From positions 2,666,001-2,730,000 of the forward strand of contig NZ_CP082161.1 of the NCBI RefSeq assembly GCF_023101665.1: a DNA stretch of 64,000 nucleotides. The letters run 5' to 3'. The notes under the pieces were generated by a model. The model did no database searches, was not told the origin of the DNA, and saw only the letters and a program-made list of their open reading frames with translations. This document shows, piece by piece, positions 4,017 to 62,252 of the stretch (its first letter is position 1; each line of letters starts with the position of its first letter). This DNA is from Bradyrhizobium sp. 195 (GTDB lineage Bacteria; Pseudomonadota; Alphaproteobacteria; Rhizobiales; Xanthobacteraceae). The translations under genes were made by a program, and so were the position numbers.

Positions 4017-4038
4017 GTTCCATAAAAGAACTTGTCAA
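4017..4038 (-). promoter_or_regulatory. etfBA promoter with GTTCT-type operator
   Basis: Read on the minus strand, a perfect -35 box TTGACA (4038-4033) is followed after one base by the palindrome GTTCT-TTTAT-GGAAC (4031-4017) and then a -10-like TATCGA at 17-bp spacing. The palindrome lies entirely between -35 and -10, a repressor position. The same arrangement recurs at 12.6, 16.7, 17.8 and 62.2 kb. The regulator is not identified. Confidence 0.7.
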
Positions 4039-4252
4039 GAGGATGCAAGCGCTCTGGCAAGCAGGACAGTTCGGCGGCCAAATCGGCTGCACGTCGTGAA
4101 CGACCGCTTATTCATTTTTGACTAGGCGCTGCTCGAAATGCGCGGCTCGACCGGGTTGCAGGAAACACACCTACTTTCTCACCCTAGGTTCATCCTCGGA
4201 AATCGATCCGTTCGTCATGCGCGACGACCGGATCACGCTCCCAGGAAAACCA

Positions 4253-5524
4253 ATGAGGTGGACGTTGGAGCAGCGAACTTTGTATCCGGATCGATCGAAC
4301 CAGGAGGCTAGAGAGAGGTCTCATAACTTCGGTCCGATCATCGCTGCATATGGATCTGACGACCTCGTGAGAATGGCGGACACACTGGCGATCGGACTCG
4401 CCATAGAGATGGAGCCGACGACATGGGAAGGCATCCGGACGGCCGGCGAGTCTGCGCGACCAGCGGTCCTGAAAATTCCGGGTGTCCCGGCCGCCATTGA
4501 GATTGACTCGTCCGGGAGGTTGCGTCCGCTTCGTCAGCACGGCTTTCTGGTCGGTGACGAGATCGACAAGCTCATGACATCCGCAGGCTTACGGAGCCGG
4601 CTACATCGTCTGAGATCGAAAAGCAGAGATATCGCTTTCGATTTGCTCGCGCCACTCACTCTTCCGGGGCGCTTTCCGTCTAGAACAGAGTTCCGGTCCG
4701 TATGCAGATGGGCGCCTCTCATCGAAGTGTTGGCATATGCGCTGGCAACTCGCTATCTGGCGGCCCTGGAAGACTTAGGTGAGCGCGCGAGGGTCGAAGC
4801 CAATACCACATTCAGTGTCGGTGAATGCAACTATTGCGCAATAGCTCACGCGATGGCTCATTTCGCCCTGATGAGCAGCGACGCTCCTGAATACTGGTTG
4901 GCTGAAGCGGCCAAATCATCGACCTTGAATGGGTGGACTCCTAGCCTGGGATTCACGCGAGCGCGCACAATATGGTTGGCGGCGGCCGGAGCGAAGTCGG
5001 CGGCCGCGTTCGGACCGACTGCCTTGGAATGTTATCTCAGGATGTTGGTCACCGCGCGCCACGCGTTCCGGATCTTTGACGCTCTGTTCGGCTTGACCGC
5101 TATCGCTCTCAGCCATGATCACGTGCGTGAAGAGGTACTGCAAGCTGTTATGTATCACGCGCAGATGGTTAGTGACCGATCTGTCGACGACATCGATTGT
5201 GTGACGCTTGCTTTTCGTTCCGCGATCGAAGTGTTGAAGTGGCGCCCCGGCGGACACTCGCCTGTAGCCGCGCTCGATCGCCTCGGTTGGCGCCGTGACC
5301 ACGAGGGAGACGGCCTTGCTTCGCCGCCGGCCTTTCGTCTCGATCCAACCGAAACCGCACCGAATGGCATGATGCTCGGCTTCAGCGCGCTTCCGGCGAT
5401 GTTGAAAGCCTCGCCGGCCCAGCATTATCCAAGATCCAAAGCGAGAGTTTGCCGGCTCAAGCTTCGCGAAACGGAGATGCTACAGATTGCGAGACGAGCC
5501 TGGCTCCTTCATCCCACAGAATAA
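4253..5524 (+). CDS. Unrecognised protein with AhpD-like CxxCxxxH motif
   Basis: I do not recognise this protein as a whole. The start at 4253 is preferred because AGGAAAA precedes it. In-frame ATGs at 4118 and 4217 would give up to 468 residues. A segment ending GECNYCAIAH (Cys codons at 4826 and 4835, His at 4847) matches the CxxCxxxH signature of AhpD/carboxymuconolactone-decarboxylase proteins and sits at the end of a helix, as it does there. It is also preceded by the family's glutamate. Flanking sequence is largely alpha-helical with no signal peptide or membrane span. It diverges from etfBA. Its codon use is less GC-extreme than its neighbours, and it carries many Arg codons and irregular third positions, consistent with acquired or fast-evolving DNA. 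A peroxidase or thiol-redox role is only a hint. Confidence 0.6.
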   Translation: MRWTLEQRTLYPDRSNQEARERSHNFGPIIAAYGSDDLVRMADTLAIGLAIEMEPTTWEGIRTAGESARPAVLKIPGVPAAIEIDSSGRLRPLRQHGFLVGDEIDKLMTSAGLRSRLHRLRSKSRDIAFDLLAPLTLPGRFPSRTEFRSVCRWAPLIEVLAYALATRYLAALEDLGERARVEANTTFSVGECNYCAIAHAMAHFALMSSDAPEYWLAEAAKSSTLNGWTPSLGFTRARTIWLAAAGAKSAAAFGPTALECYLRMLVTARHAFRIFDALFGLTAIALSHDHVREEVLQAVMYHAQMVSDRSVDDIDCVTLAFRSAIEVLKWRPGGHSPVAALDRLGWRRDHEGDGLASPPAFRLDPTETAPNGMMLGFSALPAMLKASPAQHYPRSKARVCRLKLRETEMLQIARRAWLLHPTE

Positions 5525-5531
5525 CACAATG

Positions 5532-5611
5532 AAAAAAAACCGGCCGCTTTCGCAGCCGGTTAAGTAGTCCGAGCCAGATCTCGCCGTCTCCTGGGCCGGA
5601 CCGGGAGGTTG
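5532..5611 (-). ncRNA. Candidate small RNA with anti-Shine-Dalgarno loop and intrinsic terminator
   Basis: On the minus strand a promoter (-35 TTGACT at 5645-5640, 17-bp spacer, -10 TTTTAT at 5622-5617) precedes about 80 nt of non-coding sequence that ends in a textbook terminator: arms AACCGGC/GCCGGTT (5561-5538) followed by eight T. The predicted 5' end is single-stranded AACCUCCCG, complementary to a ribosome-binding site. It is followed by a hairpin with arms GTCCG/CGGAC and an inner GCC/GGC stem. This architecture resembles alphaproteobacterial trans-acting sRNAs of the alpha-r14/suhB kind; that match is from memory and unverified. The terminator could alternatively serve the gene at 5732-7060, 170 bases upstream on this strand, but the intervening promoter argues for a separate transcript. 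Confidence 0.65.
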
Positions 5612-5644
5612 CGGGAATAAAACATTGAGATGATGGCTTAGTCA

Positions 5645-5659
5645 ATTCTAAAAAAGAAC
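5645..5659. promoter_or_regulatory. GTTCT-type operator beside the sRNA promoter
   Basis: ATTCT-AAAAA-AGAAC matches the operator at the other sites except for the first base. It abuts the -35 box of the candidate sRNA, sharing one base with it, rather than lying between -35 and -10. Both flanking protein genes converge here, so the only promoter it could act on is that of the sRNA. Confidence 0.5.
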
Positions 5660-5731
5660 TAAAAGGTTCGAACCTGCGGCCAGTAGGCGCCCGAGCTGCA
5701 CGCCTACGGCTTGGCTCGCAACAGTGTTTTG

Positions 5732-7060
5732 TCATTTCGGGAAGCAGGCGCCGAAGGCCTTCAGGAGTTGAAGAGGACCCTTCAATCGAATCTTTCTCTG
5801 CGCGAGCGCCAGGACGACCGAGAGCTGACCATTCAAAGTCTTCAGCCAAGCGGCTGAGTCCGCCTGAATGCGCAAGTCCGGGGTACCAATGAGGCCGTCG
5901 GTGACGGTCAGCTTCTGATTTTTGATAACCACCGTGGCCTCCTTGGGCTCTTGGCCCGTGAAGACGAAGTGGTAGGTGGCATTCAAGCCCTTAGCCCTAT
6001 TACGCTGGAAGGTAAGCCCCATTCCGAAGAGAAATGCGCCGATACTCGAGGCCCGGGCACTCGAGCGTACAAACCGAAGCGACTTGTGCGGGAACATCTT
6101 CGCGGCGTGACTTGCTGCATCGGAATCCCGGACGACATACAGCGGCTCGACTTTGTCCTGCAACGGTTTGACGATCGTTTCCACGTGCGCTTTGCGGTCT
6201 GACAAGTAGCCGGCCATGACGTCTTCGCCGGCAGGACAAACCGCGACGCAATAGGCCGCATTGTAGTTGGGGCCGTACGAGAGGCTCTGCCAGCGCTTGA
6301 CTGTTTCTGCCAGCGGTTGGCGTTCACGGTAGTCCTTGGCGGACTTCGCGTCCGCGATGTCCTCGATCCATTGTGCGAATCCGCCCATGAACTGCTGGTA
6401 GTTGTGGTTGAGGCAGGAAGAAAAATCGAAATAGCCATCGGGCTTGATCGCGCCGACCGGACAGGCGACGACGCAGAGCCTGCACTCGAAGCAGGGATTG
6501 TAGTCGAGTGGCTTCGACGGCGCCTCTATGTCGAGATCGACCAGCACGGTGCCCAAAAGGATAAAGCTGCCGAATTTGGGATGGATGACGCTGCGATGGA
6601 TGCCGCGCTTTCCAACGCCGGCAGCTTCGGCAATGAGCTTGTGTGAGACGACCCATCCCCGTTCCGGGTATTTGTCGAACTCCATGGGGAATGCCATCGG
6701 CGGGTTCATCGCCGAGATGCCCATGTCCTCCAGCCGCCGAACGAGCTCGCGCGCGATATCGTCGACCTCGTGAGAAATCTTGTGGAACTCGTTATTGGAC
6801 GCTGAACGCGCGGGTGAACGGATGGGACCGCGATTCATCCTGCTCACGATGCTCACCGCCAATCGCGCCCCCGCGAATGCCCGTCGGGCGTGAACCGCTT
6901 CGTCCTTTACCAGGGGGTCATCGAGGCTGACGATACCGCAATCATCTGCACCGCATTCCATGACCAACGCCTTCAAAGCATCGAGGCTAAGGGCTGCAGG
7001 CGGTGCCGGAGGGTTGAGCCGTATGCGTTCGGCGATCGGGTGGTCTTTAAGTCCCGCCAT
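5732..7060 (-). CDS. QueG-like 4Fe-4S protein fused to a C-terminal SCP2 (sterol-carrier) domain
   Basis: The start at 7060 follows AAGGAGACC on the minus strand and gives 442 residues; a longer in-frame ATG at 7129 has no such site. Residues 185-280 hold two ferredoxin-type clusters: C190xxC193xxC196xxxC200P, and C216 with C271xxxC275P. This is the layout of epoxyqueuosine reductase (QueG) and reductive-dehalogenase C-terminal domains. The last roughly 105 residues (about 335-442) look like an SCP2 lipid-binding domain: FVFTGQEPKEATVVIKNQKLTVTDG, then WLKTLNGQLSVVLALAQRKIRLKG. There is no cobalamin-binding motif that I can see. I infer an electron-transfer or reductive step on a hydrophobic or CoA-bound substrate. 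It is monocistronic, with no Tat signal, so cytoplasmic. Confidence 0.75.
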   Translation of the reverse strand: MAGLKDHPIAERIRLNPPAPPAALSLDALKALVMECGADDCGIVSLDDPLVKDEAVHARRAFAGARLAVSIVSRMNRGPIRSPARSASNNEFHKISHEVDDIARELVRRLEDMGISAMNPPMAFPMEFDKYPERGWVVSHKLIAEAAGVGKRGIHRSVIHPKFGSFILLGTVLVDLDIEAPSKPLDYNPCFECRLCVVACPVGAIKPDGYFDFSSCLNHNYQQFMGGFAQWIEDIADAKSAKDYRERQPLAETVKRWQSLSYGPNYNAAYCVAVCPAGEDVMAGYLSDRKAHVETIVKPLQDKVEPLYVVRDSDAASHAAKMFPHKSLRFVRSSARASSIGAFLFGMGLTFQRNRAKGLNATYHFVFTGQEPKEATVVIKNQKLTVTDGLIGTPDLRIQADSAAWLKTLNGQLSVVLALAQRKIRLKGPLQLLKAFGACFPK

Positions 7061-7579
7061 GCTGGTCTCCTTGATCTGAAGGCTGCATCTGAAGGCTGCG
7101 TGCACCCGCGCGCGGTGCGCCGGACCCAATTACGGGCATATGATACTATCACGTTGTGCAGGCAGGTAAACTGCCATTTCATTGAGGTTCGTTTGGCGAT
7201 TTGATGCTAAGGGCCTGGAGCACCGAGTCTGATCCGTACGCCCGATGCACGACAGCTCCGAACTGGTCTTGCGTCGGTGTTCGCCGAAAGCATGATAGAC
7301 GTTATCTGAGAGACGGACCGAGCGACGAGGGGGCCCTGCGGGACCGAGCGTCGTGCTGCGCACTGCTTCCGAAAATCCAAGGTGTAGAACGGTTCTGCCG
7401 AAACGCGCTTCGCGGCAATTCAGCGGTAAAGCAAAGCTATTCGATTCTGAATTGGCCGAGGCCTCCGTAACGACCTATTCGTCAAGAATACGTACCAGGT
7501 TCGACACATCGGATCCGGCGGCCGCGGTGCTTGGAGAGGCAGGCAGGTGCCGTTGTTCGCCACTACAGGAGCATTCGCA
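7061..7579. other. Intergenic region without a recognisable gene
   Basis: About 520 bases separate the divergent Fe-S/SCP2 gene and the first IorA-type gene. Short open frames here have no ribosome-binding site or familiar motif. The stretch must contain promoters for both flanking genes, but no convincing -35/-10 pair or long palindrome stands out. A short AGAACGGTTCT palindrome at 7384-7394 is too isolated to interpret. Confidence 0.5.
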
Positions 7580-8038: not shown

Positions 8039-8039
8039 C

Positions 8040-12615: not shown

Positions 12616-12645
12616 TTGACGAGTTCTAAAAAAGAACGGTATGCT
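12616..12645 (+). promoter_or_regulatory. Promoter with GTTCT-type operator, upstream of the binding-protein gene
   Basis: TTGACG (-35, 12616-12621), the perfect palindrome GTTCT-AAAAA-AGAAC (12623-12637) and TATGCT (-10, 12640-12645) lie in a row with 18-bp spacing. A repressor here would block RNA polymerase directly. The site at 17.77 kb has an identical 18-bp layout and identical operator, so the two promoters should respond together. The rest of the 332-base intergenic stretch (12438-12769) shows nothing else. Confidence 0.78.
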
Positions 12646-12769: not shown

Positions 12770-13969
12770 ATGATAGCGAAATGGAAAATCGCGATAGCAC
12801 TGGCTGTGCTTTTGAGCGGCCCGGCGTCTGCGGCGGAAGAGCCAGGCGTCTCCGATACCGAGATCAAAATTGGCGGGGTTTACCCCTTCAGCGGACCGGC
12901 GTCATCGATCGGGCTCGTGGGCAAGGGTCTTATCGCCTATATCCAATCGCTGAACGAGCGAGGTGGCGTCAACGGCCGCAAGATCAACTACATCGCCTAC
13001 GATGACTCATACAGCCCACCCAAGGCGGTGGAGCACGTGCGCAAGCTGGTCGAAAGCGACGAAGTATCGTTCATGTACGGTCAGCTTGGTACGCCCGGCA
13101 TCTCGGCTACGGCCAAGTATCTCAGGGCGAAAGGCGTGCCCAGCATTGCGATCATCAGCGGCTCATCCAAGTTCACGGATATCGCCAATTATCCCCTGAC
13201 GACGACCGGTCTCGTCAGTTACGATACCGAAGGGAAGATCTACGCCAAGTATCTAACCAAAGTGCTTCCCAACGCGAAGTACGCCATTCTCTATCAGAAC
13301 GACGACCTCGGCAAAGACTACGTCAATGCTTTCAAGGCGTATCTCGGCGGCGAGTTCGATCGGAAGGTCGTGACAGCCGCTTACGAGGTCACCGAGCCCA
13401 CGATCGATTCACAGATCACGAACCTGAAGAGCACTGGAGCCGAGGCTCTCGTGATCGCTGGGACGCCGAAGTTTGCGGCGCAGGCAATCAGGCAGGCTTC
13501 GGTGATCGGATGGAAGGCGACCATCATCATCAATTTTCCTTCCGCGTCCGTTGGTGGCACGCTCGCGCCGGCCGGTCTCGACAAGTCGATCGGCGTAATC
13601 GCCGGCACGATCACCAAAGACATTGCTGACGAGGCGTGGAAGGACGATCCTGCCATGCAGGACTACAGAAAGTTCTTCGAGAAGTATATCCCCGGCGCCG
13701 ACATCACCAACGGGACCTACCTGGTCGGATATCAGCAGGGAATTCTGCTCGAGCAGATCCTGAAACAATGCGGCAATGACCTCTCCCGCAAGAATATTCT
13801 CGCGCAGGCAAAGAATCTCAAGCAGGCCATCGTCCCCGTCGCGCTGCCGGGAATTGAGGTCAATACCAGTGAAAACGCGAACATGATGTGGTCTCAAATG
13901 CGGCTGCAGCGCTGGACCGGCACGGCGTACAAGTTGTTCGGAGATGTGCTCGACGCGAAATCCGAGTAG
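12770..13969 (+). CDS. Liv-type ABC transporter substrate-binding protein (first copy)
   Basis: A 399-residue periplasmic binding protein of the branched-chain amino acid/aromatic acid class. The N-terminus is a Sec signal (hydrophobic AIALAVLLSG, cleavage near ASAAEE). The mature start reads VSDTEIKIGGVYPFSGPAS, typical of receptor-ligand-binding family proteins that bring aromatic or acyl compounds to LivHMGF permeases. No permease is adjacent; the only Liv component in the window is the partial livG at the right edge. The gene at 49.7 kb is a close paralogue (shared motifs GGVNGRKI, LYQNDDLGKD and YDTEG). Expression is probably controlled by the GTTCT operator 130 bases upstream, and the ligase gene that follows may be in the same transcript. 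Confidence 0.9.
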   Translation: MIAKWKIAIALAVLLSGPASAAEEPGVSDTEIKIGGVYPFSGPASSIGLVGKGLIAYIQSLNERGGVNGRKINYIAYDDSYSPPKAVEHVRKLVESDEVSFMYGQLGTPGISATAKYLRAKGVPSIAIISGSSKFTDIANYPLTTTGLVSYDTEGKIYAKYLTKVLPNAKYAILYQNDDLGKDYVNAFKAYLGGEFDRKVVTAAYEVTEPTIDSQITNLKSTGAEALVIAGTPKFAAQAIRQASVIGWKATIIINFPSASVGGTLAPAGLDKSIGVIAGTITKDIADEAWKDDPAMQDYRKFFEKYIPGADITNGTYLVGYQQGILLEQILKQCGNDLSRKNILAQAKNLKQAIVPVALPGIEVNTSENANMMWSQMRLQRWTGTAYKLFGDVLDAKSE

Positions 13970-14116: not shown

Positions 14117-15937
14117 ATGGGATCAATTTCAATGTCAACGAACGAACCTGTCTTCGCGCCCAAAGAGGTCTCACTGCAGCGTCGGAGCGACGGTACGCTT
14201 ATCTTGAAGTCGCCGCTCGAGCTGGGAGAGTGCGATTGGCGTGTCACGGACTTCCTGCTGACCTGGGCGAAAGCCGCTCCCGATCGCATCTTCTTGGCTC
14301 AGCGCAATTCAAACGGCGAGTGGGACGAGATCACATATAGCCAGGCCTGGTCCTCGGTTCAGGCGGTTGGTCAAAGCCTGATCGAAATGGATGCGAAGCC
14401 TTCGGATAGTCTTGCCATCCTCTCCGGGAATTCCATAGAGAATGCGGTGATTTCTTTCGCCGCAATGTCGATCGGCTTGGTTTTCGCGCCGATCTCGCCG
14501 AATTACACCTTGATGCCTGGCGGCTTGGCGCGCCTGAAGGATATCGCAGAGGTGCTGCGTCCGAAGTTCGTATTCGTGCAAAGCGGACGCGATTTCGCCG
14601 CCGCCCGCTCCATTCCGGAACTGAAGGCGGCAAGCTGGATCAGCGTAGACGGTGCTCCCGAAACGGTGCGCTATTCCGACCTGACGAAGCAGAGGAGTGG
14701 CTATGAAGGCTTCGAACGCGCGTCCCGCTCCGTATCTTGCGATTCCGTCGCAAAAGTCCTCTTCACGTCGGGCTCGACGGGCCTTCCCAAGGGCGTCCTG
14801 AATACTCACCGCATGATGGCGAGCTCGCTACAAATGGGTAGCTTGCTGGTAGCCCCGTCCGAAGCGCCTGTTCAGGTCGAGTGGATGCCATGGCACCACA
14901 CCATGGGAAGCAACGTCATTCTGCACGGCATACTCAAGAATGGAGGGACGCTCTACATCGACGACGGCCGGCCATTACCGCAGCTCTTCCACAAAACGCT
15001 CCTCAATCTCCAAGAGGTTTCGCCGACCGCGATGTTCAATGTGCCGGCCGGCTATAATTTCCTTTGCGACGCCATCGAGAAGGATTCCGAGCTTGGGGCG
15101 CGCATACTGAAGCGGTTGGACAGGATAAGCTACGCTGGCGCAGCCATCTCGCAGAACACGCTCGAGCGTCTTTACCGATTGACGTCATCGATCACCGACC
15201 GGCGGATTCCTGTCATGTCCGGCTACGGTACGACGGAAACCGCTCCAACGATCAGTACGACCCATTGGGCTACCGATCGACCGGGGGAAATCGGCCTTCC
15301 CGCGCCCGGTTTGCAGCTTAAACTGCTTCCCGTTTCCGATACATACGAGGTGCGGGTCAAGGGTCCCAACGTCACGCCGGGTTATCTCGGCCGGCCGGAT
15401 TTGACGGAACAAGCCTTTGATGAAGAAGGCTTCTATCGCATCGGCGACACGGTCTCGTTCATGGACCCCGAGAAACCCGAAAAGGGACTTCGCTTTACGG
15501 GCAGGATTTCCGAAAACTTCAAGCTCGCGAACGGGACCTGGGTATCGATCGGGAACATGCGCGCCGCAATCTTGTCAGCTGGCCGCGGCGTGCTGTCGGA
15601 TGTGGTGATTGCAGGCGAAAACCGAGAATGCTGCGGTCTGCTTTGCTGGCTGAACCCGACTGAGGCGGCCCGGATCTCTTCGCAGTCGTCTTCCGACCTG
15701 AACCCCAATCCCGTCGTCGTGCAGTTCCTCAAGGATCGCCTCGAAGAGTACAACCGGACCGTTGGCAGCAGCGAGAAGGTCCACTCGTTCGTGCTGCTCA
15801 AGGAGCCGCCGTCAATTGCCGCCGGAGAAATCACCGACAAGGCGTATGTCAATCAACGCGCGGTCTTGAAGTGCCGGTCGGACCAGGTCGAATCTCTCTA
15901 CGGCTCCGCCCCGAACCCAGACGTGATCCGAGTTTGA
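14117..15937 (+). CDS. Feruloyl-CoA synthase-like AMP-forming acyl-CoA ligase
   Basis: The 606-residue ANL-family ligase has the AMP-binding P-loop FTSGSTGLPKGVLNTHR (216 onward) and a central WMPWHHTMGSN...GGTLYIDDGRP segment characteristic of feruloyl-CoA synthases. The later motifs are GYGTTETAP and FYRIGDTVSF. It should activate a hydroxycinnamate or related aryl acid with ATP and CoA. The hinge/C-terminal domain is FCS-like, with GRISENFKLANGTWVS in place of the usual GRxKD...NGE. It lies 147 bases after the binding-protein gene on the same strand, so uptake and activation could be co-expressed. A second in-frame ATG five codons in is an equally possible start. Substrate identity is inferred from family only. 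Confidence 0.85.
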   Translation: MGSISMSTNEPVFAPKEVSLQRRSDGTLILKSPLELGECDWRVTDFLLTWAKAAPDRIFLAQRNSNGEWDEITYSQAWSSVQAVGQSLIEMDAKPSDSLAILSGNSIENAVISFAAMSIGLVFAPISPNYTLMPGGLARLKDIAEVLRPKFVFVQSGRDFAAARSIPELKAASWISVDGAPETVRYSDLTKQRSGYEGFERASRSVSCDSVAKVLFTSGSTGLPKGVLNTHRMMASSLQMGSLLVAPSEAPVQVEWMPWHHTMGSNVILHGILKNGGTLYIDDGRPLPQLFHKTLLNLQEVSPTAMFNVPAGYNFLCDAIEKDSELGARILKRLDRISYAGAAISQNTLERLYRLTSSITDRRIPVMSGYGTTETAPTISTTHWATDRPGEIGLPAPGLQLKLLPVSDTYEVRVKGPNVTPGYLGRPDLTEQAFDEEGFYRIGDTVSFMDPEKPEKGLRFTGRISENFKLANGTWVSIGNMRAAILSAGRGVLSDVVIAGENRECCGLLCWLNPTEAARISSQSSSDLNPNPVVVQFLKDRLEEYNRTVGSSEKVHSFVLLKEPPSIAAGEITDKAYVNQRAVLKCRSDQVESLYGSAPNPDVIRV

Positions 15938-16052: not shown

Positions 16053-16571
16053 TCAGGCTGCTTTGCGTCGTACCTTGGGTTTTGGGGCCGGCGCTTCCAG
16101 GTCGTTTTTCGCAAGGGGGCGCCTGGCACCAGGGCCCGGATGCGTATGGACCTCTTTGGCTAAAACCGGCTCGCCACACTCGGAGCAAACCATGACGGGG
16201 TCGAAGTTCTTACCGCAGTTGCGATGCTGATGCAGAAGCGGCCGACCGCGTTCGTCGACCATGTGAGTGTCGCCCCAATGGACGATCGCCATCATGATCG
16301 GATAGAGATCGAGGCCCTTCTGCGTCAGGATGTACTCGTGGCGCTTGGGCGATTCTTGATAGGGGACTCGGCGAAGAATGCCTTGCCGGACAAGCTTCTT
16401 CAACCGCTCGGCAAGGAGATGGCGGGTTATTCCCAAGGCGGACTGGAATCCCTCGAAGCGGCGAGTACGCAAAAAGCATTCGCGTAGGATGAGCAGCGTC
16501 CATCGGTCGCCGATTACGGCGATAGTCCTGGCCATTGAGCATGGCTCTTCCTCAAGTTCCTTCCATTTCAT
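16053..16571 (-). CDS. HxlR-family transcriptional regulator with C-terminal CxxC
   Basis: A 172-residue winged-helix protein starting at the ATG preceded by GGAG (16571); a 20-codon upstream extension is less likely. The HxlR hallmark is EEPCSMARTIAVIGDRWTLLILRE followed by the recognition-helix region ITRHLLAERLKKLVRQGILRR. Unusually for HxlR, the C-terminus adds a cysteine-bearing tail (HRNCG...VMVCSECGEPV) that could bind zinc or sense redox, then a basic KPKVRRKAA end. It diverges from the HCCA-isomerase-like gene. A TACC...GGTA imperfect palindrome at 16631-16648 lies upstream of its own start and may be its operator. Confidence 0.9.
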   Translation of the reverse strand: MKWKELEEEPCSMARTIAVIGDRWTLLILRECFLRTRRFEGFQSALGITRHLLAERLKKLVRQGILRRVPYQESPKRHEYILTQKGLDLYPIMMAIVHWGDTHMVDERGRPLLHQHRNCGKNFDPVMVCSECGEPVLAKEVHTHPGPGARRPLAKNDLEAPAPKPKVRRKAA

Positions 16572-16630
16572 CCGCGGTCTCCAATAGCCCCGATCATTCT
16601 CCCACGAATCTGCGGAGAAGCGACAAGTCA

Positions 16631-16648
16631 TACCATTCTAGATAGGTA
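16631..16648. promoter_or_regulatory. Imperfect palindrome, possible HxlR operator
   Basis: TACCATTCTAGATAGGTA is an 18-bp inverted repeat (7 of 9 pairs match) centred about 70 bases upstream of the HxlR start codon. HxlR proteins commonly autoregulate through short palindromes. This element differs from the GTTCT operator 62 bases further on, so two regulators may act in this intergenic region. Confidence 0.4.
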
Positions 16649-16703: not shown

Positions 16704-16732
16704 TTGACAGTTCAAAAATAGAACTGTAAACC
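16704..16732 (+). promoter_or_regulatory. Promoter with GTTCT-type operator, upstream of the isomerase-like gene
   Basis: TTGACA (-35, 16704-16709) is followed immediately by GTTCA-AAAAT-AGAAC (16710-16724) and then TGTAAACC, which supplies a weak -10. The palindrome matches the other operators with two arm or spacer variations. The ATG of the gene served is 47 bases beyond the operator. Confidence 0.68.
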
Positions 16733-16770: not shown

Positions 16771-17403
16771 ATGACCCCGAAAGTAGAATTCCAGTTCGAT
16801 TTCGGTAGTCCGAACGCCTATTTGGCCGAGGTCGCGATCCCGGGCATCGAACAGCGAACCGGGGCCAAATTCGAGTACGTCCCGGTCCTTCTTGGCGGCA
16901 TCTACAAGGCCACCGGAAACATGTCGCCCTTCGATTCTCTTCGTGGAATCAAGAACAAGCCGGAGTATCAGGCGCTCGAGACGCAGCGGTTCATTCGCCG
17001 CCATAACGTGACGAAATTCCGCACCAATCCCTTCTTCCCCGTCAACACCCTCATGTTGATGCGCTGCGCGGTTGCGGCGCAGTTCGAGGGAGTGTTCGAG
17101 CCCTACTTCAGGGCCGCCTATCATCATATGTGGGAAGAACCGAAGAAAATGGACGATCCTGAAGTTTTTCGGAGCGCGTTCGTCTCTTCAGGCATCGATA
17201 TCGATCGCGTGGCAAAACGTGCGCAGGAAGACGATGTGAAGAAGCGGCTCATCGAGTTGACGAACGACGCCGTGAGCCGGGGCGCGTTCGGCTCGCCGAC
17301 TTTCTTCGTCGGCAAGGAAATGTTCTTCGGAAAGGATCAGTTGCGAGACGTGGAGGAATCCATCGTCGAACAAACCCGCGGGACCACTTCCAGGACCAAG
17401 TGA
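16771..17403 (+). CDS. 2-hydroxychromene-2-carboxylate isomerase-like (DsbA/GST-kappa fold) protein
   Basis: The 210-residue thioredoxin-fold protein starts with VEFQFDFGSPNAYLA, the signature of HCCA isomerases (NahD) and GST-kappa proteins, where Ser replaces the DsbA CxxC. Near the C-terminus, GAFGSPTFFVGKEMFFGKDQL carries the cis-Pro loop and the family ending. Members are glutathione-dependent isomerases in naphthalene-type ring cleavage, but many act on unknown substrates. It is a single gene with its own operator-controlled promoter, divergent from an HxlR gene. Confidence 0.88.
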   Translation: MTPKVEFQFDFGSPNAYLAEVAIPGIEQRTGAKFEYVPVLLGGIYKATGNMSPFDSLRGIKNKPEYQALETQRFIRRHNVTKFRTNPFFPVNTLMLMRCAVAAQFEGVFEPYFRAAYHHMWEEPKKMDDPEVFRSAFVSSGIDIDRVAKRAQEDDVKKRLIELTNDAVSRGAFGSPTFFVGKEMFFGKDQLRDVEESIVEQTRGTTSRTK

Positions 17404-17769: not shown

Positions 17770-17799
17770 TTGACGAGTTCTAAAAAAGAACGCTATGTA
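17770..17799 (+). promoter_or_regulatory. Promoter with GTTCT-type operator, head of the beta-oxidation operon
   Basis: TTGACG (-35, 17770-17775), the perfect palindrome GTTCT-AAAAA-AGAAC (17777-17791) and TATGTA (-10, 17794-17799) have the same 18-bp spacing as the promoter at 12.62 kb. The block from TTGACGAGTTCT through AGAACG is the same in both, while sequence outside is unrelated. This points to selection on the operator/promoter rather than a duplicated segment. Confidence 0.78.
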
Positions 17800-17893: not shown

Positions 17894-18631
17894 GTGCAGA
17901 AGAGAAACGCAACCGCGGCTGTCATCGGCGCCGGCGATTTCATCGGCGGCGAGATCGCCAAGAAGTTTGCCGCAGAAGGGTTCACCGTCTTCGCCGGCCG
18001 TCGTAACGGCGAAAAGTTGGCTCCGCTCGTCAAGGATATCGAGGCTGCCGGCGGAGAGGTTCACGCCCGTTCGCTCGACGCTCGCAAGGAAGACGAGATC
18101 GTCTCGTTCCTGAACGATGCAGACAAACATGCGCCGCTGGAAGTCTGCATCTTCAACATCGGCGCGAACGTCAACTTCCCGATTCTGGAGACCACTGAGC
18201 GCGTTTTCCGCAAGGTCTGGGAAATGGCCTGCTATTCGGGCTTTCTGGCCGGCCGCGAGGCGGCTCGCCTGATGCTGCCGCGCGGGGGCGGTAAGATCTT
18301 CTTTACGGGGGCGACCGCTTCGCTCCGCGGCGGCAGCGGTTACGCTGCCTTTGCGAGCGCAAAATTCGGCCTTCGCGCGGTCGCGCAAGCAATGGCTCGC
18401 GAGCTTGGCCCCCAAAATATCCACGTTGCGCATCTGATCATCGATTCCGGTGTGGATACCGAATGGGTTCGGCAGCGGCGGCTGGAGGCTCTCGGGCCAA
18501 ACGCGCTGGACGATCCGGATGCGTTGATGCCGCCGTCCTCCGTTGCTGCATCCTATTGGCAACTCTACCAGCAGCCGAAAAGCGCATGGACGTTCGAGCT
18601 GGAGATTCGTCCTTTCGGCGAGAAGTGGTGA
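17894..18631 (+). CDS. Atypical short-chain dehydrogenase (catalytic Tyr position is Phe)
   Basis: The 245-residue Rossmann protein is first in a five-gene operon. The nucleotide-binding loop is GAGDFIGG (12-19), where classical SDRs have GxxxGIG. In the active-site region GGSGYAAFASAKFGLRA, the residue four before Lys157 is F153, not Tyr; Y150 is three residues too early. The NNAG-equivalent is NIGAN. Relatives with the same FASAKFGLRA...MARELGP pattern exist, as I recall, so the change is probably family-wide rather than a lesion. A redox role is therefore uncertain; it may bind an acyl-CoA intermediate or use another residue. The start follows AGGGAG at about 12 bases. Confidence 0.82.
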   Translation: MQKRNATAAVIGAGDFIGGEIAKKFAAEGFTVFAGRRNGEKLAPLVKDIEAAGGEVHARSLDARKEDEIVSFLNDADKHAPLEVCIFNIGANVNFPILETTERVFRKVWEMACYSGFLAGREAARLMLPRGGGKIFFTGATASLRGGSGYAAFASAKFGLRAVAQAMARELGPQNIHVAHLIIDSGVDTEWVRQRRLEALGPNALDDPDALMPPSSVAASYWQLYQQPKSAWTFELEIRPFGEKW

Positions 18632-18643
18632 GGAGCAAATAGT

Positions 18644-19825
18644 ATGGAGCTGGCGCTTTCTCCAGAGGATGCCGCATTTCGGGACGAAGTGCGCTCCTTC
18701 ATCGCGGAAAACTACCCTGCGGAAATGCGAGTCCCGAATCCGGAGACCGACCTGACCAAGGAGCAATCGCTGCTCTGGCATCGCATTCTGCACAAAAAGG
18801 GCTGGATCGCGCCTCTCTGGCCCAAGGAGTACGGCGGTCCCGGCTGGTCGATCACGCGCCGCTTCATCTTTGAACAGGAGACCAGCCGCGCCGGCACGCT
18901 GCCGCCCTTGGCATTCAGCGTCACCATGGTGGGGCCTGTCATCTACACGTTCGGCAACGATGCCCAGAAGAAGAAGTTTCTTCCGCGTATCCTGTCGGGC
19001 GAGGACTGGTGGTGCCAGGGCTACTCCGAGCCGGGCTCCGGCTCGGACCTGGCAACCGTCCGCACCAAGGCCGTGCGCGACGGCGATCACTATATCGTCA
19101 ATGGTCACAAGACTTGGACGACGCTCGCTCAGCATGCGGATTGGATCTTCTGTCTGGTGCGGACCGATCCGAATGCGAAACCACAATCCGGCATCTCCTT
19201 CCTGTTGATCGACATGAAGTCGCCCGGCGTCACCGTGCGGCCGATCATCACCATCGACGGAAGCCATGAGGTCAACGACGTCTTTCTGGAGGACGTTCGT
19301 GTCCCCGTCGAGAACCTGATCGGCGAGGAGAACAAGGGCTGGACCTATGCCAAGTTTCTGCTCGGCAACGAACGAACCAGCATGGCCGGCATCGGTCGAT
19401 CGACGCGCTACATCAACAAACTAAAGCAGATCGTGGAGGCCGAGGTCGCGCCCGACGATCCTGCGCATCTCGACTTCCTGCGCGAGATCGCCCTCGTGGA
19501 ACTCGACGTACTGGCGCTCGAGGCGACCGAGCTGCGTGTCGTGGCTCAGATGGCGCGGGGCATCGACCCTGGACCGGCCGCCTCGTTGTTCAAGATCCGC
19601 GGCACTGAGATTTTCCAGAAGATCACCGAATTGACTCATCGCGCGATCGGCAATTACGGGCTCGCGCTGCGCGAGCATCCGGTCAGCGCCAACCACTTCA
19701 TGCCCGGCTCTGAATACGGGCACACCGCGTCGGAAAAGTACCTGAATTCTCGCAAGCTCAGCATCTACGGCGGGTCGAACGAGATTCAGCGCAACATCAT
19801 CGCAAAAGTTGTGCTTGGTCTCTAG
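18644..19825 (+). CDS. Acyl-CoA dehydrogenase (first of a pair)
   Basis: The 393-residue FAD enzyme of the acyl-CoA dehydrogenase family oxidises an acyl-CoA to the 2-enoyl-CoA and hands electrons to ETF. Motifs include WPKEYGGPGWS, the FAD/substrate loop YSEPGSGSDLATVRTKA, GHKTWTT and the C-terminal signature YGGSNEIQRNIIAKVVLGL. GAGGAGC precedes the ATG, 12 bases after the SDR stop. A second, shorter ACAD follows 21 bases on. Such pairs often form heteromeric dehydrogenases for branched, cyclic or steroid-type acyl-CoAs, so the two products may assemble together; this is inference from arrangement. Confidence 0.94.
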   Translation: MELALSPEDAAFRDEVRSFIAENYPAEMRVPNPETDLTKEQSLLWHRILHKKGWIAPLWPKEYGGPGWSITRRFIFEQETSRAGTLPPLAFSVTMVGPVIYTFGNDAQKKKFLPRILSGEDWWCQGYSEPGSGSDLATVRTKAVRDGDHYIVNGHKTWTTLAQHADWIFCLVRTDPNAKPQSGISFLLIDMKSPGVTVRPIITIDGSHEVNDVFLEDVRVPVENLIGEENKGWTYAKFLLGNERTSMAGIGRSTRYINKLKQIVEAEVAPDDPAHLDFLREIALVELDVLALEATELRVVAQMARGIDPGPAASLFKIRGTEIFQKITELTHRAIGNYGLALREHPVSANHFMPGSEYGHTASEKYLNSRKLSIYGGSNEIQRNIIAKVVLGL

Positions 19826-19846
19826 CCAGAGTATCGAGAGGGTCGG

Positions 19847-20977
19847 ATGGACATTCAGTTTACGGAAGAGCAGGAGTTGCTGCGATCCAGCATCCAGCGC
19901 CTGCTGCGCGATCAGTATGATTTCGATGCGCGCCGCAAGATCGTCGCCGACGAACAAGGTTTTAGCCGCAGGCAATGGGCGGCGTTCGCCGAACTCGGCC
20001 TGCTGGCTGCACCGTTCGCGGAAGACGCTGGTGGCCTCGGCGGCGGTCCGCTGTCGACCATGATCATCGCCCATGAATTCGGGCGCCATCTCGTCGTCGA
20101 GCCGTTCGTCGAGACGGTGGTGTTGGCCGGCGGCCTGATCGAACGGCTAGGCGATGCCGCGCAGAAACAGGGCTTCATCCCCGACATCATCGACGGCAAG
20201 AAGATCTGGACGCTGGCCTGGACGGAGAAGGGGGGGCGGTTCGATCTCGCAGACGTGACGACCACCGCGCGACGCGAGGGCGATGCCTATGTCCTGAGCG
20301 GCGGAAAGACGGCGGTGATCGCGGCGCCCTGGGCGGATTACATCCTCATTTCCGCGCGCACCTCGGGTAATCGACGGGACCGCGATGGGGTCAGTCTGTT
20401 CGTGGTCGACCGCCGCGCGGCTGGTGTCGATCTGCAAAGCTTCAGGACCATCGACGGCCGGCGCGCCGCCGAGATCAGTCTGCGCAATGTCCGTGGGCAG
20501 TTGCTCGGCAAGGAAGGCGAGGGCGTGGCTGCGCTGGAGGCCTGCCGCGACCGCGCCATCGGCGCGCTCTGTGCGGAAGCGGTCGGTGCCATTGGCGAGT
20601 TGAATTCCGCCACATTGGAATATTCGAAGACCCGCAAGCAGTTCGGCACCACCATCGGTTCGTTTCAGGTGCTGCAGCATCGGATGGTCGATATGTTCAT
20701 CGCCCATCAGGAAGCGCTCTCGCTGATGCAACATCTCAATCTCAGCATCAGCGACGGTGAAGCCGGGCTCTCGCGGCTCGCCTCCGGCGCCAAGACGAAG
20801 ATCGGCTATGCGGCCAAATTCGTCGCCGACCAGGCTGTGCAGCTGCATGGCGGCATGGGTATGACCGATGAGCTCAATGTGGGCCACTATTTCAAGCGGA
20901 TCTCTTCCATCAACATCCAGTTCGGCGACCCTGCGTTCCATGTCCTGCGCTATGCACGACTGGGCGCGGCCGCGTAA
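19847..20977 (+). CDS. Acyl-CoA dehydrogenase (second of a pair)
   Basis: The 376-residue acyl-CoA dehydrogenase family member begins [20 protein letters not shown] and ends with the partially degenerate [20 protein letters not shown] region. The FAD loop is much altered ([24 protein letters not shown]), as expected for the non-catalytic or shared-site partner in alpha2beta2 ACADs. It sits between ACAD-1 and thiolase with 21- and 14-base gaps. It probably forms a complex with the preceding gene product in the cytosol. Confidence 0.93.
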
Positions 20978-20991
20978 GAAAAGAGGCGAGT

Positions 20992-22179
20992 ATGACGACA
21001 GAAGCAGTAATCGTTTCCACCGCTCGTACCGCGGTCGGCAAAGCCTACCGTGGATCCCTCAACAATACGGAGGGCCCGACCTTGGCCGGTCACGTCATGG
21101 CCGAGGCGGTGAAGCGCGCCGGCATCGCCCCGGGTGAAGTCGAAGACGTGGTGATGGGCTGCGCCATGCAGCAAGGCACCATGGTGATGAACGTGGCCCG
21201 CAAGGGGGCGATCCGTGCGGGCATGCCGGTGACCGTCGCCGGGACGACGATCGATCGGCAATGCGCCTCTGGCCTGCAGGCGATCGCCGTGGCGGCACGT
21301 TCCGTGATGCTGGATGGCGTGGACGTCGCGATCGGCGGCGGCATCGAGTCGATCAGCCTGGTGCAAAACGAGCACATGAACAAGTTTCATATGGTCGACG
21401 ATGAATTGATGGCAATGAAGCCGGACATGTACATGTCGATGCTCGAGACGGCAGAAACGGTCGCCGAGCGCTACAAGATCGGCCGCGACAAGCAGGATGA
21501 ATACAGCCTCGAGAGCCAGCGCCGCGTCGGAGCTGCTTTGCAGAGCGGCCGGTTCGACGAGGAGATCGTTCCAATCACGACGAAAATGGCGCTCGTCAAC
21601 AAGGAGACCAAGCAGGTCTCCTATGAACAGGTGACCCTCGCCAAAGACGAAGGCCCGCGTCCCGACACGACGGCAGAAGGCCTCGCCAAGATCAAGCCGG
21701 TGTTCGAGGGCAAGACCATCAGCGCCGGCAATGCGAGCCAGCTTTCCGACGGTGCTTCGGCATGCGTGATCATGAGCGATAAGGCCGCAGCCAAGAAGGG
21801 ACTCAAGCCGCTCGGCATCTTCCGCGGCTTCGTTGCAGCGGGCGTCGAGCCGGACGAGATGGGTATTGGCCCGGTCATCGCGATCCCCCGCCTGCTGAAG
21901 CGTCACAACCTGAAGATCGACGACATCGATCTCTGGGAGCTCAACGAGGCATATGCCGTTCAGGTGATCTATTGCCGCGACAAGCTCGGCATCGACCCGA
22001 ACAAGCTCAACGTCAATGGGGGCTCGATCGCGATCGGCCATCCCTATGGCATGACCGGCGCGCGCCTCACCGGCCACCTTCTGATCGAGGGGCGGCGACG
22101 AAAGGCAAAGTACGGCGTCGTGACCATGTGCATCGGTGGCGGCATGGGCGCGGCGGGCCTTTTCGAAATCATCCATTGA
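20992..22179 (+). CDS. Acetyl-CoA acetyltransferase (thiolase)
   Basis: The 395-residue thiolase cleaves 3-ketoacyl-CoA with CoA. The acyl-accepting cysteine is C91 in [14 protein letters not shown]. The catalytic histidine is H350 in [12 protein letters not shown], where the usual Gly-Thr-Gly context is changed by a Tyr, and the second cysteine is C380 in [21 protein letters not shown] precedes the ATG. It completes an operon-level beta-oxidation set (two dehydrogenases plus thiolase), with FadB encoded at the left edge of the window. Confidence 0.95.
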
Positions 22180-22200
22180 ACGGAACTGCGGGAGATCATC

Positions 22201-28447: not shown

Positions 28448-28996
28448 ATGTCCAGTGCGAAGCAGGGCCGTCTCGCCAACAAGGAATGCTCCGTTGCGCG
28501 AGCCATGGAAATCGTCGGTGATCGTTGGTCCATCCTGATTCTGCGGGAGGCGTATTACGGCGTGAAGCGCTTCGACGAGTTCGAGATGTACGTCGGAATC
28601 GCCCCCAACATCCTGAGCGCCAGGTTGAAGAAGCTCGTAACTGCCGGTGTTATGAGGCGGGTACCTCTGCCCGAGCATTCTGGCCGATACGAGTATGTCC
28701 TCACCGACAAGGGCCGCGACTTTTTTCCGGCCTACCTTGCGTTGAAGAAATGGGGTGACGACTGGCTCGCGGAGTCAGAGGGACCGCAGGTCGTGTTTCT
28801 CGATCGCGCGGCGGGACGTCCGATTGAATATCCGGAGCTGAAAAGAGCGGACGGCAAGCCTTTGCGGCTCGAGGACGTCGAGATCGTCCCCGGCGCGGGT
28901 GCCGTGCGCTTCAATCGAACGCGATTTGGCGGCGCTTCAGGCGGCCGCAATGTCGGCAAGCCGGTCGGTGCCGTCTCAAGAGGAAAGCGCAAGTAG
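28448..28996 (+). CDS. HxlR-family transcriptional regulator
   Basis: The 182-residue winged-helix regulator has CSVARAMEIVGDRWSILILREAYYGVKRFDEF followed by IAPNILSARLKKLVTAGVMRR. A perfect GGAGGTGA precedes its ATG by eight bases. It lies 83 bases after the CoA-transferase gene and its last 21 bases overlap the convergent stop of the CoxM-type gene, so it could be the local regulator of either operon. A C-terminal Gly/Arg/Lys-rich tail is present. I found no clear palindrome in its short upstream region. Confidence 0.9.
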   Translation: MSSAKQGRLANKECSVARAMEIVGDRWSILILREAYYGVKRFDEFEMYVGIAPNILSARLKKLVTAGVMRRVPLPEHSGRYEYVLTDKGRDFFPAYLALKKWGDDWLAESEGPQVVFLDRAAGRPIEYPELKRADGKPLRLEDVEIVPGAGAVRFNRTRFGGASGGRNVGKPVGAVSRGKRK

Positions 28997-60195: not shown

Positions 60196-60303
60196 CGATC
60201 GCAATCTAATTTTGGGATGATAACGAAAGCGTGATCTCCAGATCGAAGGTTTCCTCGCGGAGTGCCAAATCCAGGGGTTGAGATTGATAGATTGCAGTTG
60301 AAC

Positions 60304-60323: not shown

Positions 60324-60350
60324 GGGACGAAATCCAAATGGAGGTCCACG

Positions 60351-60929
60351 ATGCGAGTGAGTCGCACCCAGGCGGCCGAGAACCGCCAAACCGTGATCAA
60401 TGTGGCCAGTCGCCTCTTCAGGGAGCGCGGCTTCGACGGCATTGGGCTCAAGGACCTGATGAAGGGTGCCGGGCTAACCCAGGGCGCCTTCTACAAGCAG
60501 TTCGCGTCCAAAGAGGATCTGGCGGTCGAGGCATCCAGGCGCGCTCTGGAGAGCGCGTCCGGCCGATGGACGGATGCTGCCACTCAGAATCCCGATGATC
60601 CGCTTGGCGCGGTGATCGGGTTCTACCTCAGCGGCGACCATCGCGGAGAAAAGATGGACGGTTGCCCGATCGTGGCGCTTGGCTCGGATGCCGCGCGTCA
60701 GGGCCCCGAGGTGAAGGCGGAATTTGAAGCGGGCATCAAAGCCCATCTCGACGTGCTCGGCCGCTTCATCGCCGGAGCTGACGACGAGGCCTCCCGCAGC
60801 AAGGCCATGGCCATTCTCGCGACGATGGTTGGCGCGGTGACGCTCTCGCGCATGATCAACGACCCCGATCTGGCTCAGGCCGTTCTGGATGCCGCAGCCG
60901 AACAGGTTCGCGACGCCGCTGTCGCTTGA
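60351..60929 (+). CDS. TetR-family transcriptional regulator of the efflux operon
   Basis: The 192-residue repressor has the HTH LKDLMKGAGLTQGAFYKQFASKEDLAVEA and a TetR C-terminal domain with GDHRGEKMDGCPIVALGSDAARQGPEVKAEFEAGI, resembling NemR-type sensors with a conserved Cys in GCP. GGAGG lies six bases upstream of the ATG. It is divergent from the RND operon, and two related palindromes lie between. An SDR gene follows 69 bases downstream. A remnant of a related gene is at 62.0-62.2 kb. Confidence 0.9.
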   Translation: MRVSRTQAAENRQTVINVASRLFRERGFDGIGLKDLMKGAGLTQGAFYKQFASKEDLAVEASRRALESASGRWTDAATQNPDDPLGAVIGFYLSGDHRGEKMDGCPIVALGSDAARQGPEVKAEFEAGIKAHLDVLGRFIAGADDEASRSKAMAILATMVGAVTLSRMINDPDLAQAVLDAAAEQVRDAAVA

Positions 60930-60998
60930 AGGATGGGACGTTGTTCGGATTGAGAACGTGCCCGAGGCCCATTCGCGGATCAAACTAGAAAGAGAACG

Positions 60999-61799
60999 AT
61001 GTCGAAAGAGGCAGCGGACAGCTTCGCCGGAAAATGGGCTCTGATCACGGGCGCGTCGAGTGGCCTCGGCCTTGAATTCGCAGATCTCCTGGCGGCGCAG
61101 AAAGTCAATCTCGTGCTGGCGGCGCGACGGCAAGAGCCGATGGATAGGCTTGCCTCCGATCTCCGCCGCAAATACGGGGTGGATGTGCTGGTCGAGGCGA
61201 TCAATCTTGCCGCGCCGGGCGCGGCCACCCGCCTGAAAAGCAGTCTCGACGCGAGGTCAGTGACGGTCGACATCTTGTTGAACAATGCCGGCTTCGGCTT
61301 GCACGGCGATTTTCTGGACACGCCGATCGAGCATACCGCGAACATGATCCAGCTCAACATCACAACGCTCACAGAGCTGACCTATCTATTCGGCCATGAC
61401 ATGGCTAAGCGGCGATCCGGACATATCCTTCTCATCGCCAGCCTTCTGGCCTTCCAGGCCGTCCCCAGCTACGCGGCCTATGCGGCGACCAAGGCTTATG
61501 TCCTCGCGCTTGGCGAGGCCCTGCATGACGAACTCCGCCCAAACGGTGTGGTCGTTACCAGTCTCTGCCCGGGGCACACCGCGACGGGCTTCGATGCGGC
61601 AGCCGGCGCAACCGCATCGGCCGTGCTGCGCCTTCTCACCATGAAGCCGCGCCCGGTCGCCGCGAGCGGAATTCGGGCATTGCTGCAAGGAAAGGCTATG
61701 GTGGTCGCAGGCTTCTCGAACAAAATGGCCGCCTTTTCAAATCGTCTGACACCGCGATCAATGCAAAGGGCCACGATGAAAAGAATAATGGACGCTTGA
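60999..61799 (+). CDS. Short-chain dehydrogenase/reductase
   Basis: The 266-residue classical SDR has TGASSGLGLEFADLLA (NADP loop), LNNAGFG, and the catalytic set S...Y-AATK in LIASLLAFQAVPSYAAYAATKAYVLALGEALHDEL. This is an intact YxxxK, unlike the SDR at 17.9 kb. It lies downstream of tetR in the same direction, so it may be co-expressed. No signal peptide. Substrate unknown. Confidence 0.9.
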   Translation: MSKEAADSFAGKWALITGASSGLGLEFADLLAAQKVNLVLAARRQEPMDRLASDLRRKYGVDVLVEAINLAAPGAATRLKSSLDARSVTVDILLNNAGFGLHGDFLDTPIEHTANMIQLNITTLTELTYLFGHDMAKRRSGHILLIASLLAFQAVPSYAAYAATKAYVLALGEALHDELRPNGVVVTSLCPGHTATGFDAAAGATASAVLRLLTMKPRPVAASGIRALLQGKAMVVAGFSNKMAAFSNRLTPRSMQRATMKRIMDA

Positions 61800-62037
61800 C
61801 TCCGGAGCGCCTGGGTGCGGGCGCTCGCCGAACCAGCGCGGGTTCTTGACTCTTGGCAGAGGTCGCAGAAAAGGCGCGTGTGCAAGCAAGCGCGGATACG
61901 AGCCGATGGCTCTTGTAATTGAAGCTCGACCTCAGCACCAACCATCGAAGAACGGATCGACAGTTGTCGGATCTTGGCGCGCGGGATCGCGGCCCTCTCG
62001 ACGCTAGACCGGCGCCTTGAGCCGTTGCGAGCTGTGC
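61800..62037. other. Intergenic region, no gene seen
   Basis: The first part of a 600-base gap after the SDR. No gene, hairpin terminator or palindrome stands out. From 62038 it runs into the TetR remnant and then the Old Yellow Enzyme promoter. Confidence 0.45.
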
Positions 62038-62185
62038 AATGACCCGCGTTCGCGCAAGCGGTTTTGAAGAGTGTCGCCGAACAGGTTCGTGAGACCGCGC
62101 ACAACGCCCCGACCAGCGCAGTCGAAATCGCCAGACCAGCCGACCTCGATAAAAATTCCAAAAAAGAACTGCGTCATAGTGTCTA
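62038..62185 (+). pseudogene. 3' remnant of a TetR-family gene
   Basis: After a one-base frameshift, the frame reads PAFAQAVLKSVAEQVRETAHNAP, matching DPDLAQAVLDAAAEQVRDAAVA at the end of the intact TetR protein encoded at 60.35-60.93 kb. Only the C-terminal part survives, followed by a short extended tail to a TAA. Its position upstream of the Old Yellow Enzyme gene suggests a lost local repressor. A poor operator match at 62155-62169 lies inside this frame and may reflect Lys/Glu codons. Confidence 0.65.
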
Positions 62186-62223
62186 AGGGAGCCATTGGTA
62201 AGAAAAAGTTTGATCAAGCTTCA

Positions 62224-62252
62224 TTGACGGTTCTTATTTAGAACTGTATAGG
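62224..62252 (+). promoter_or_regulatory. Promoter with GTTCT-type operator, upstream of the Old Yellow Enzyme gene
   Basis: TTGACG (-35, 62224-62229), palindrome GTTCT-TATTT-AGAAC (62230-62244) and TATAGG (-10, 62247-62252) at 17-bp spacing repeat the layout seen at 12.6 and 17.8 kb. The spacer differs in sequence but both arms are perfect. The gene start is 148 bases downstream. Confidence 0.75.

Follow-up and report, generated by a model that had tools for sequence, protein, structure and literature searches.

A dispersed catabolic regulon in Bradyrhizobium and an HxlR/DUF24-family gene as the candidate reader of its 15-bp operator

Introduction

YodB of Bacillus subtilis is a repressor of the MarR/DUF24 family with the operator TACT-[7]-AGTA (PMC8063818). 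In a second member, B. subtilis HxlR, Cys11 is described as a residue that the family conserves and uses to sense electrophiles (PMC7835342), and a third, CatR, represses a catabolic operon together with YodB (PMC6212828). Here we describe a 64,000-nucleotide stretch of the 9.14-Mb genome of Bradyrhizobium sp. 195 (C1:2666001-2730000, to be referred to as the window), in which a 15-mer, GTTC-N7-GAAC with an A/T-rich core, lies between the -35 and -10 boxes of five promoters. This 15-mer is very probably the operator of an HxlR/DUF24 winged-helix repressor encoded in the same window at 16053-16571 (-), and of a paralogue that is 86% identical to it.

The protein and its putative operator resemble those of YodB in several respects. 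The two proteins belong to the same family and have a conserved N-terminal cysteine, and both operators consist of two 4-bp half-sites 7 bp apart (PMC8063818). GTTC-N7-GAAC has the 4-7-4 layout known from YodB. There are differences, however. The half-site is TACT in YodB and GTTC here, the helix residues here are TRH, and the protein has a longer C-terminus with an invariant His-Cys-Cys-Cys pattern. Moreover, YodB controls defence against quinones and diamide, whereas the regulon here is catabolic.

B. subtilis HxlR, the formaldehyde-sensing regulator of hxlAB, is also similar. The winged helix-turn-helix of the AlphaFold2 (AF2) model of the Bradyrhizobium protein matches 7bzg, with 33% identity over the aligned part, and Cys11 of HxlR is at the same place as Cys31 here (PMC7835342). 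In comparison, Lys13 of HxlR, needed for the formaldehyde crosslink, is replaced by Met here (in an alignment by eye), and HxlR activates, whereas the operator position here implies repression. CatR and HypR of B. subtilis and QsrR of Staphylococcus aureus share the DUF24 family and fold, with HypR (4a5n and 4a5m) and the QsrR-DNA complex (4hqe) among the structure matches. They differ in their single or few targets, in responding to electrophile or catechol stress and, on a rough comparison, in their operators. CouR has a comparable logic, as the repressor of a catabolic gene set that is released by a coenzyme A (CoA) thioester, p-coumaroyl-CoA (PMC4737184), but it belongs to MarR proper and has another operator.

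A genistein-induced HxlR gene of Bradyrhizobium japonicum, near nopP and with an RpoN promoter, is described in a paper whose available text gives no operator (PMC9069715). No description of the 15-mer operator or of the regulon was found in the openly licensed literature, and its absence in print is thus not shown. HxlR-family repressors and 4-7-4 operators are already known; the regulon and the covariation rule described below appear to be new within the literature searched.

The operator motif in the window and the genome

The initial annotation of the window had described the inverted repeat GTTCT-N5-AGAAC directly after a TTGAC(A/G) box in five promoters, at 4017, 12623, 16710, 17777 and 62230, with near copies at 5645 and 62155. 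All seven copies are present at these positions, and the placement after TTGAC(A/G) holds in all five promoters. The repeat itself, however, is exact only at 12623, 17777 and 62230. The copies at 4017 (GTTCCATAAAAGAAC, with its promoter on the minus strand) and 16710 (GTTCAAAAATAGAAC) are each one base off the 5-bp arms. As a result, GTTC-N7-GAAC with an A/T-rich core, which is exact in all five promoter sites, is the better description.

The chance level of the motif depends on the form in which it is written. With two mismatches allowed, the window contains 24 matches compared to a mean of 18.6 in shuffled sequences, and 11 of 100 shuffles reach as many; this form was dropped. Bare GTTC-N7-GAAC with any core is barely enriched genome-wide (111 matches, and 82 for the reversed pattern) and was dropped as well. 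The signal is therefore carried by the core and the promoter context. The pattern RTTCHWWWWWDGAAY, with an A/T core and relaxed half-site ends, is found at 13 places in the genome and its reversed control at none. Seven of these places are in the window, three at C1:6246428-6248813, two on contig 2 (C2:381756 and C2:381833) and one at C1:8285240. The last lies within an open reading frame (ORF) that has no link to the pathway, and was not taken as a target. TTGAC-N1-2-GTTC-N7-GAAC is found at eight places (control, none), namely the five promoters of the window, C1:6246428 (-), C1:6248619 (-) and C2:381827 (+). We did not count a copy at 60943 (GTTCGGATTGAGAAC), whose core is mixed and next to which no -35 box is visible.

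Once the A/T core or TTGAC is included, therefore, the motif stands above its control in the genome scan that the initial annotation had proposed. Neither chance frequency nor a lack of promoter enrichment in relatives was observed for these forms, and the genome scan and the related genomes described below support the proposal of a dispersed regulon marked by a putative operator between the -35 and -10 boxes.

The HxlR/DUF24 gene and its co-occurrence with the motif

The initial annotation had named no repressor for the motif. The best candidate reader, by computation, is the HxlR/DUF24-family gene at 16053-16571 (-) beside the 16710 operator (PF01638, 82.9 bits against a cut-off of 20.8). 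Its start was set at Met21 of the ORF 16053-16631 by comparison with relatives. The gene is divergent from an HCCA (2-hydroxychromene-2-carboxylate)-isomerase-like gene, with the operator located between the two. Its relatives of known structure include, by sequence, HxlR, HypR (YybR) and YodB, and matches by fold likewise point to an HxlR-type winged helix-turn-helix. Among 176 distinct homologues, Cys31 is present in 100% of the matches covering the position. Behind the HxlR domain (residues 136-152, 192-residue numbering), His136, Cys139, Cys149 and Cys152 form a possible metal site; they are invariant in 101 homologues of at least 55% identity and are present in about three quarters of those below 55%. 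The AF2 model has a mean pLDDT (predicted local distance difference test) of 68.7, with values below 60 from about residue 111 on, the low-confidence C-terminal part in which these residues lie.

There are 18 PF01638 matches in the genome. The paralogue, at C1:6246565-6247089, is 86% identical over 176 residues. Here too, GTTCTAAAATAGAAC separates the regulator gene from a divergent HCCA-isomerase-like gene, and the second binding-protein gene next to it has sites of its own. The sites at C2:382 kb precede a CoA ligase and a binding-protein gene, followed by a stretch similar to Old Yellow Enzyme (OYE; two tblastn pieces). The regulon extends to these two further loci, C1:6246-6249 kb and C2:382 kb.

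The named records closest to the window genes are from Bradyrhizobium. A scan of one genome per species (84,980 species) gave 73 HxlR loci, mostly from Bradyrhizobium and Afipia, which together span 1.17 Mb and contain 143 strict sites, compared to none for the control. Exact GTTC-N7-GAAC is located within 240 bp upstream of the HxlR match at 68 of the 73 loci, so that the same motif does precede a regulator gene in relatives, a check that had been suggested for it. Three loci (L048, L075 and L077) have a site with one mismatch only. At L076 no exact site is present and the HxlR match covers residues 50-171 only, and at L078 the HxlR is 49% identical and GTAT-N7-ATAC follows TTGCCC.

The co-occurrence was also assessed in 198 genomes of the family, with an HxlR orthologue defined as at least 64% identical; 13 genomes in which all HxlR matches are weaker (E values up to 1e-35, identity about 47% at most) were counted as being without one. 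GTTCTWWWWWNGAAC is present in 28 of the 29 genomes with an orthologue and in 16 of the 169 without (Fisher p 1e-21, uncorrected for relatedness), compared to 3 of 29 and 25 of 169 for its reversed control. In 59 genomes the short-chain dehydrogenase/reductase (SDR) encoded at 17894 has a counterpart of at least 77% identity (13 candidates were scored per genome). With this SDR present in all of them, the motif is found in 28 of 29 with HxlR and in 2 of 30 without (p 2e-13). A broader sample comprised 150 genomes from the order, and its four same-genus members each hold both motif and HxlR. In the other 146, where the HxlRs are 43-56% identical, motif and HxlR matches do not coincide, as is expected if single matches are chance and the HxlRs differ.

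Covariation of the half-site with the recognition helix

We compared 96 distinct regions upstream of HxlR homologues of about 28-71% identity, drawn from the genome itself and from its family, order, class and phylum. With an A/T-rich core, GTTC-Nk-GAAC was observed 31 times at k = 7 and once for all other k from 3 to 12. The 31 sites are in 29 kb of HxlR upstream DNA, compared to one site in 246 kb elsewhere in the same loci. In diverged HxlRs the half-site changes with the recognition helix while the 7-bp spacing holds. It tracks residues 69-71, at the start of this helix (helix 50-62 of the AF2 model, Met21 numbering). The triplet ARR goes with GTCT in five of five cases, SRT with GTCC (six palindromes among eight regulators) and TPQ with CTAT (two regulators). 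For other triplets, for example APN and most ARN, no 4-7-4 site was seen in the HxlR upstream regions. Regulator pairs with the same triplet share a half-site 48 times, compared to a mean of 10.2 and a maximum of 32 in 20000 permutations (one record per genus and triplet, 67 records, 37 with a site; phylogeny not modelled).

Two tests were fixed before new data were read. In the first (55 new regions), the TRH helix has GTTC in three of four cases compared to 5 of 51 for the others (p 0.008), and ARR has GTCT in one of one compared to 0 of 54. The regions were 300 bp long instead of the 250 bp set down, with every match within 130 bp, and Met was admitted at residue 68, which accounts for the one miss. 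In the second (34 new regions, 15 with a site), Arg or Lys at residue 70 goes with G as the first base in 7 of 9 cases compared to 0 of 6 for other residues (p 0.007); this rule had been formed on 26 of 29 compared to 0 of 8.

Another regulator of the pathway loci might bind the 15-mer instead, with HxlR merely travelling along. The binding-protein promoter has a MarR gene next to it in L001 (at the second binding-protein gene) and L026, a TetR gene (60351-60929) is 1.2 kb from the operator pair at 62155 and 62230, and as the pathway genes co-occur, any local regulator would co-occur as well. This alternative is improbable, however. In the 59 genomes above the motif tracks HxlR rather than the SDR of the pathway. 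The MarR and TetR genes are not found repeatedly next to the sites (MarR with the substrate-binding protein at 3 of 202), and in other orders and classes the site in front of an HxlR gene changes along with the recognition helix of that HxlR.

Promoter geometry

The etfBA promoter (4010-4038, minus strand) has the -35 box TTGACA at 4038-4033, the operator GTTCTTTTATGGAAC at 4031-4017 and a -10-like TATCGA at 4015-4010, the last read from the sequence. In the binding protein/ligase promoter (12616-12645, +), TTGACG (12616-12621) is followed by GTTCTAAAAAAGAAC (12623-12637) and TATGCT (12640-12645), and the same 15-mer is found in the SDR operon promoter (17770-17799, +) at 17777-17791, between TTGACG (17770-17775) and a -10-like TATGTA (17794-17799). 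The spacer is 18 bp in both. The region between hxlR and the HCCA-isomerase-like gene (16704-16732, +) has TTGACA at 16704-16709, the operator at 16710-16724 and a -10-like TAAACC at 16727-16732, and on the minus strand TTTACA forms a -35-like hexamer oriented towards hxlR. The OYE promoter (62224-62252, +) has TTGACG (62224-62229), GTTCTTATTTAGAAC (62230-62244) and a -10-like TATAGG (62247-62252), with a spacer of 17 bp. All five are matches of the TTGAC-coupled pattern.

A second copy on the OYE side, ATTCCAAAAAAGAAC (62155-62169), is 75 bp upstream of the 62230 operator and has no adjoining -35 box. This pair, and the pair at C2:381756 and C2:381833 (77 bp) upstream of the contig-2 ligase, could allow looping. 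The copy at 5645-5659 (ATTCTAAAAAAGAAC) has no promoter boxes and no query-set gene within 450 bp. Its membership of the regulon is unsupported, there being no -35 box and no recognisable target.

The same arrangement was observed in 202 A/T-core sites from the window and loci L001-L078, with related genomes each counted. A -35-like hexamer (agreeing with TTGACA at five or more of its six positions, and no more than 5 nt from the 15-mer, on one strand or both) is present at 169 of the 202, compared to 3.7% of random positions and 10.7% of A/T-core positions. Of these hexamers, 180 in number, 179 stop 0 or 1 nt short of the 15-mer. The aligned consensus is TTGACR-(A)-GTTCT-W5-AGAAC-NN-TA, with the TA of the -10 box at a spacer of 17 or 18. 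Of the 33 sites that have no -35 hexamer, 28 are within 300 bp of a site bearing one, such as 62155 near 62230 and C2:381756 near 381833, and the remaining five include 5645. The operator beside hxlR faces the HCCA isomerase in 55 cases, an SDR in 13, another binding protein in four and no query-set gene in two; the other sites mostly precede a binding-protein gene, an SDR operon or a CoA ligase.

The putative operator fills the 17- or 18-bp spacer of an ordinary sigma-70-like promoter, which makes repression by occlusion likely. MerR regulators also bind between the -35 and -10 boxes, in promoters with spacers of 19-20 bp, and the position of the 15-mer would suit a MerR-type activator that re-aligns a poor promoter. 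The normal spacer length and the adjacent regulator, an HxlR and not a MerR protein, make such an activator very unlikely. Chance palindromes in A/T-rich promoter DNA, with which the two-mismatch and bare forms would agree, are already contradicted by the counts for the A/T-core and TTGAC-coupled forms and for the relatives, and have next to no probability left.

Proposed mechanism

From the computed motif, promoter geometry, HxlR co-occurrence, gene position and half-site/helix covariation, we infer HxlR binding, repression over activation, autoregulation, an inducer and a substrate, as follows. An HxlR homodimer would read the two GTTC half-sites, and the bound repressor in the spacer would keep RNA polymerase off the five window promoters and three elsewhere, those of the second HCCA-isomerase gene, the second binding-protein gene and, on contig 2, the paired genes for a CoA ligase and a binding protein. 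In the divergent region around 16710, HxlR probably holds down its own expression. Release would come from an inducer, for which a CoA-thioester intermediate or an electrophile detected by the conserved N-terminal cysteine is the likeliest choice, and uptake, CoA activation, dehydrogenation with electron transfer flavoprotein (ETF), thiolysis and flavin-dependent reduction would come on together. An inducer among such intermediates would be in line with the OYE, the flavoenzyme similar to nitronate monooxygenase (NMO) or FabK, and the protein similar to kappa-class glutathione S-transferase (GST) in the regulon.

Several points weigh against this assignment. The whole case is computational, and family membership is no proof of repression, as HxlR of B. 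subtilis activates (PMC7835342). Because HxlR served to retrieve the 73 loci, its presence throughout them follows from the design; the genome-level test is therefore less biased. One genome with HxlR (G301) has only a one-mismatch site. In the order, at least one GTTCTWWWWWNGAAC is found in 25 of 150 genomes compared to an HxlR match at 1e-40 in 10, and single matches outside the family mean little. The Fisher values and the permutation ignore relatedness. The TRH helix goes with GTTC in 13 of 17 cases and not in all, and two ATRH helices outside the rule had no site in the first test. The seven successes of the second test come from about four lineages (L202 and L203 are of one genus; L226, L229 and L232 of one family), and both of its scorable triplet predictions failed, one with no site and one with another palindrome. 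Support is therefore stronger for the residue-70 rule than for the full triplet code.

Genes of the regulon and their neighbours

The regulon looks like a CoA-dependent, beta-oxidation-type route. The genes etfA (2301-3236, -) and etfB (3236-3985, -, with its ATG at 3985) match Pfam ETF/ETF_alpha. The etf site is faced by the ORF 4118-5524 (+), whose codon GC pattern is flat and which matches no Pfam or NCBIfam family; we do not count it among the targets. The periplasmic binding protein (12770-13969, +; Peripla_BP_6) is followed by an acyl-CoA synthetase (14117-15937, +; AMP-binding; PRK12582, 799.7 bits against a cut-off of 777). The operon 17894-23214 begins with the SDR (17894-18631, +), followed by two acyl-CoA dehydrogenases similar to PimC and PimD (18644-19825 and 19847-20977, +; 484 and 369 bits, under the curated cut-offs of 624 and 653), a thiolase (20992-22179) and the NMO/FabK-like flavoenzyme (22201-23214, +). 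The OYE-family gene is at 62400-63500 (+; PF00724).

The HCCA-isomerase or kappa-GST-like gene (16771-17403, +; DSBA fold, PF01323) matches 2imd, a 2-hydroxychromene-2-carboxylate isomerase, with an E value of 8e-13. Among the best 120 of 8000 scored matches, its close relatives are labelled 2-hydroxychromene-2-carboxylate isomerase or DsbA family, and no pathway name appears. From the gene set, a steroid route of the KstR2/HIP type was considered as a possibility. The isoflavone ifc cluster of Variovorax V35 and relatives was considered as a substrate route from the published text; its main text does not contain 'acyl-CoA', 'old yellow' or 'repressor' (PMC11069340). Afipia and metagenome bins account for many of the 73 loci.

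Further HxlR genes are located at 28448-28996 (+) and 32823-33314 (+), the second with an upstream AGTCACT-N11-AGTGACT, unlike the 4-7-4 layout. At G000:C1:6331156-6332052, and in frames of about 310-425 residues in other genomes, there are two HxlR domains per frame, apparently fused tandem HxlRs. A MarR-family gene (L001:8939-9409) lies beside the second binding-protein promoter, which has two operator copies. At 5732-7129 (-), a 465-residue protein unusually combines an SCP2 domain at the C-terminus with a ferredoxin-like 4Fe-4S part, and is weakly similar to QueG and reductive dehalogenases.

Implications

We give an even chance to a broader reading, in which the HxlR family would follow a readable protein-DNA code. 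The 4-7-4 operator would be fixed and its half-site set by the three residues opening the recognition helix (TRH for GTTC, ARR for GTCT, SRT for GTCC, TPQ for CTAT), with Arg or Lys at residue 70 giving G as the first base and other residues a different one, often C. From sequence one could then predict the operators and regulons of the many HxlR proteins that are still unstudied. In Bradyrhizobium and related bacteria, a thiol-bearing HxlR would switch on a CoA-dependent pathway, whose substrate may be an electrophilic plant compound of the enone or quinone type.

The results provide a candidate repressor, operator and target list for an uncharacterised catabolic system in many Bradyrhizobium, Afipia and related genomes. 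They would extend the HxlR family from Gram-positive stress defence to a multi-locus catabolic regulon, and from the covariation of half-site and helix comes a simple rule, open to testing, by which operators could be predicted across a large and mostly unstudied family of repressors.

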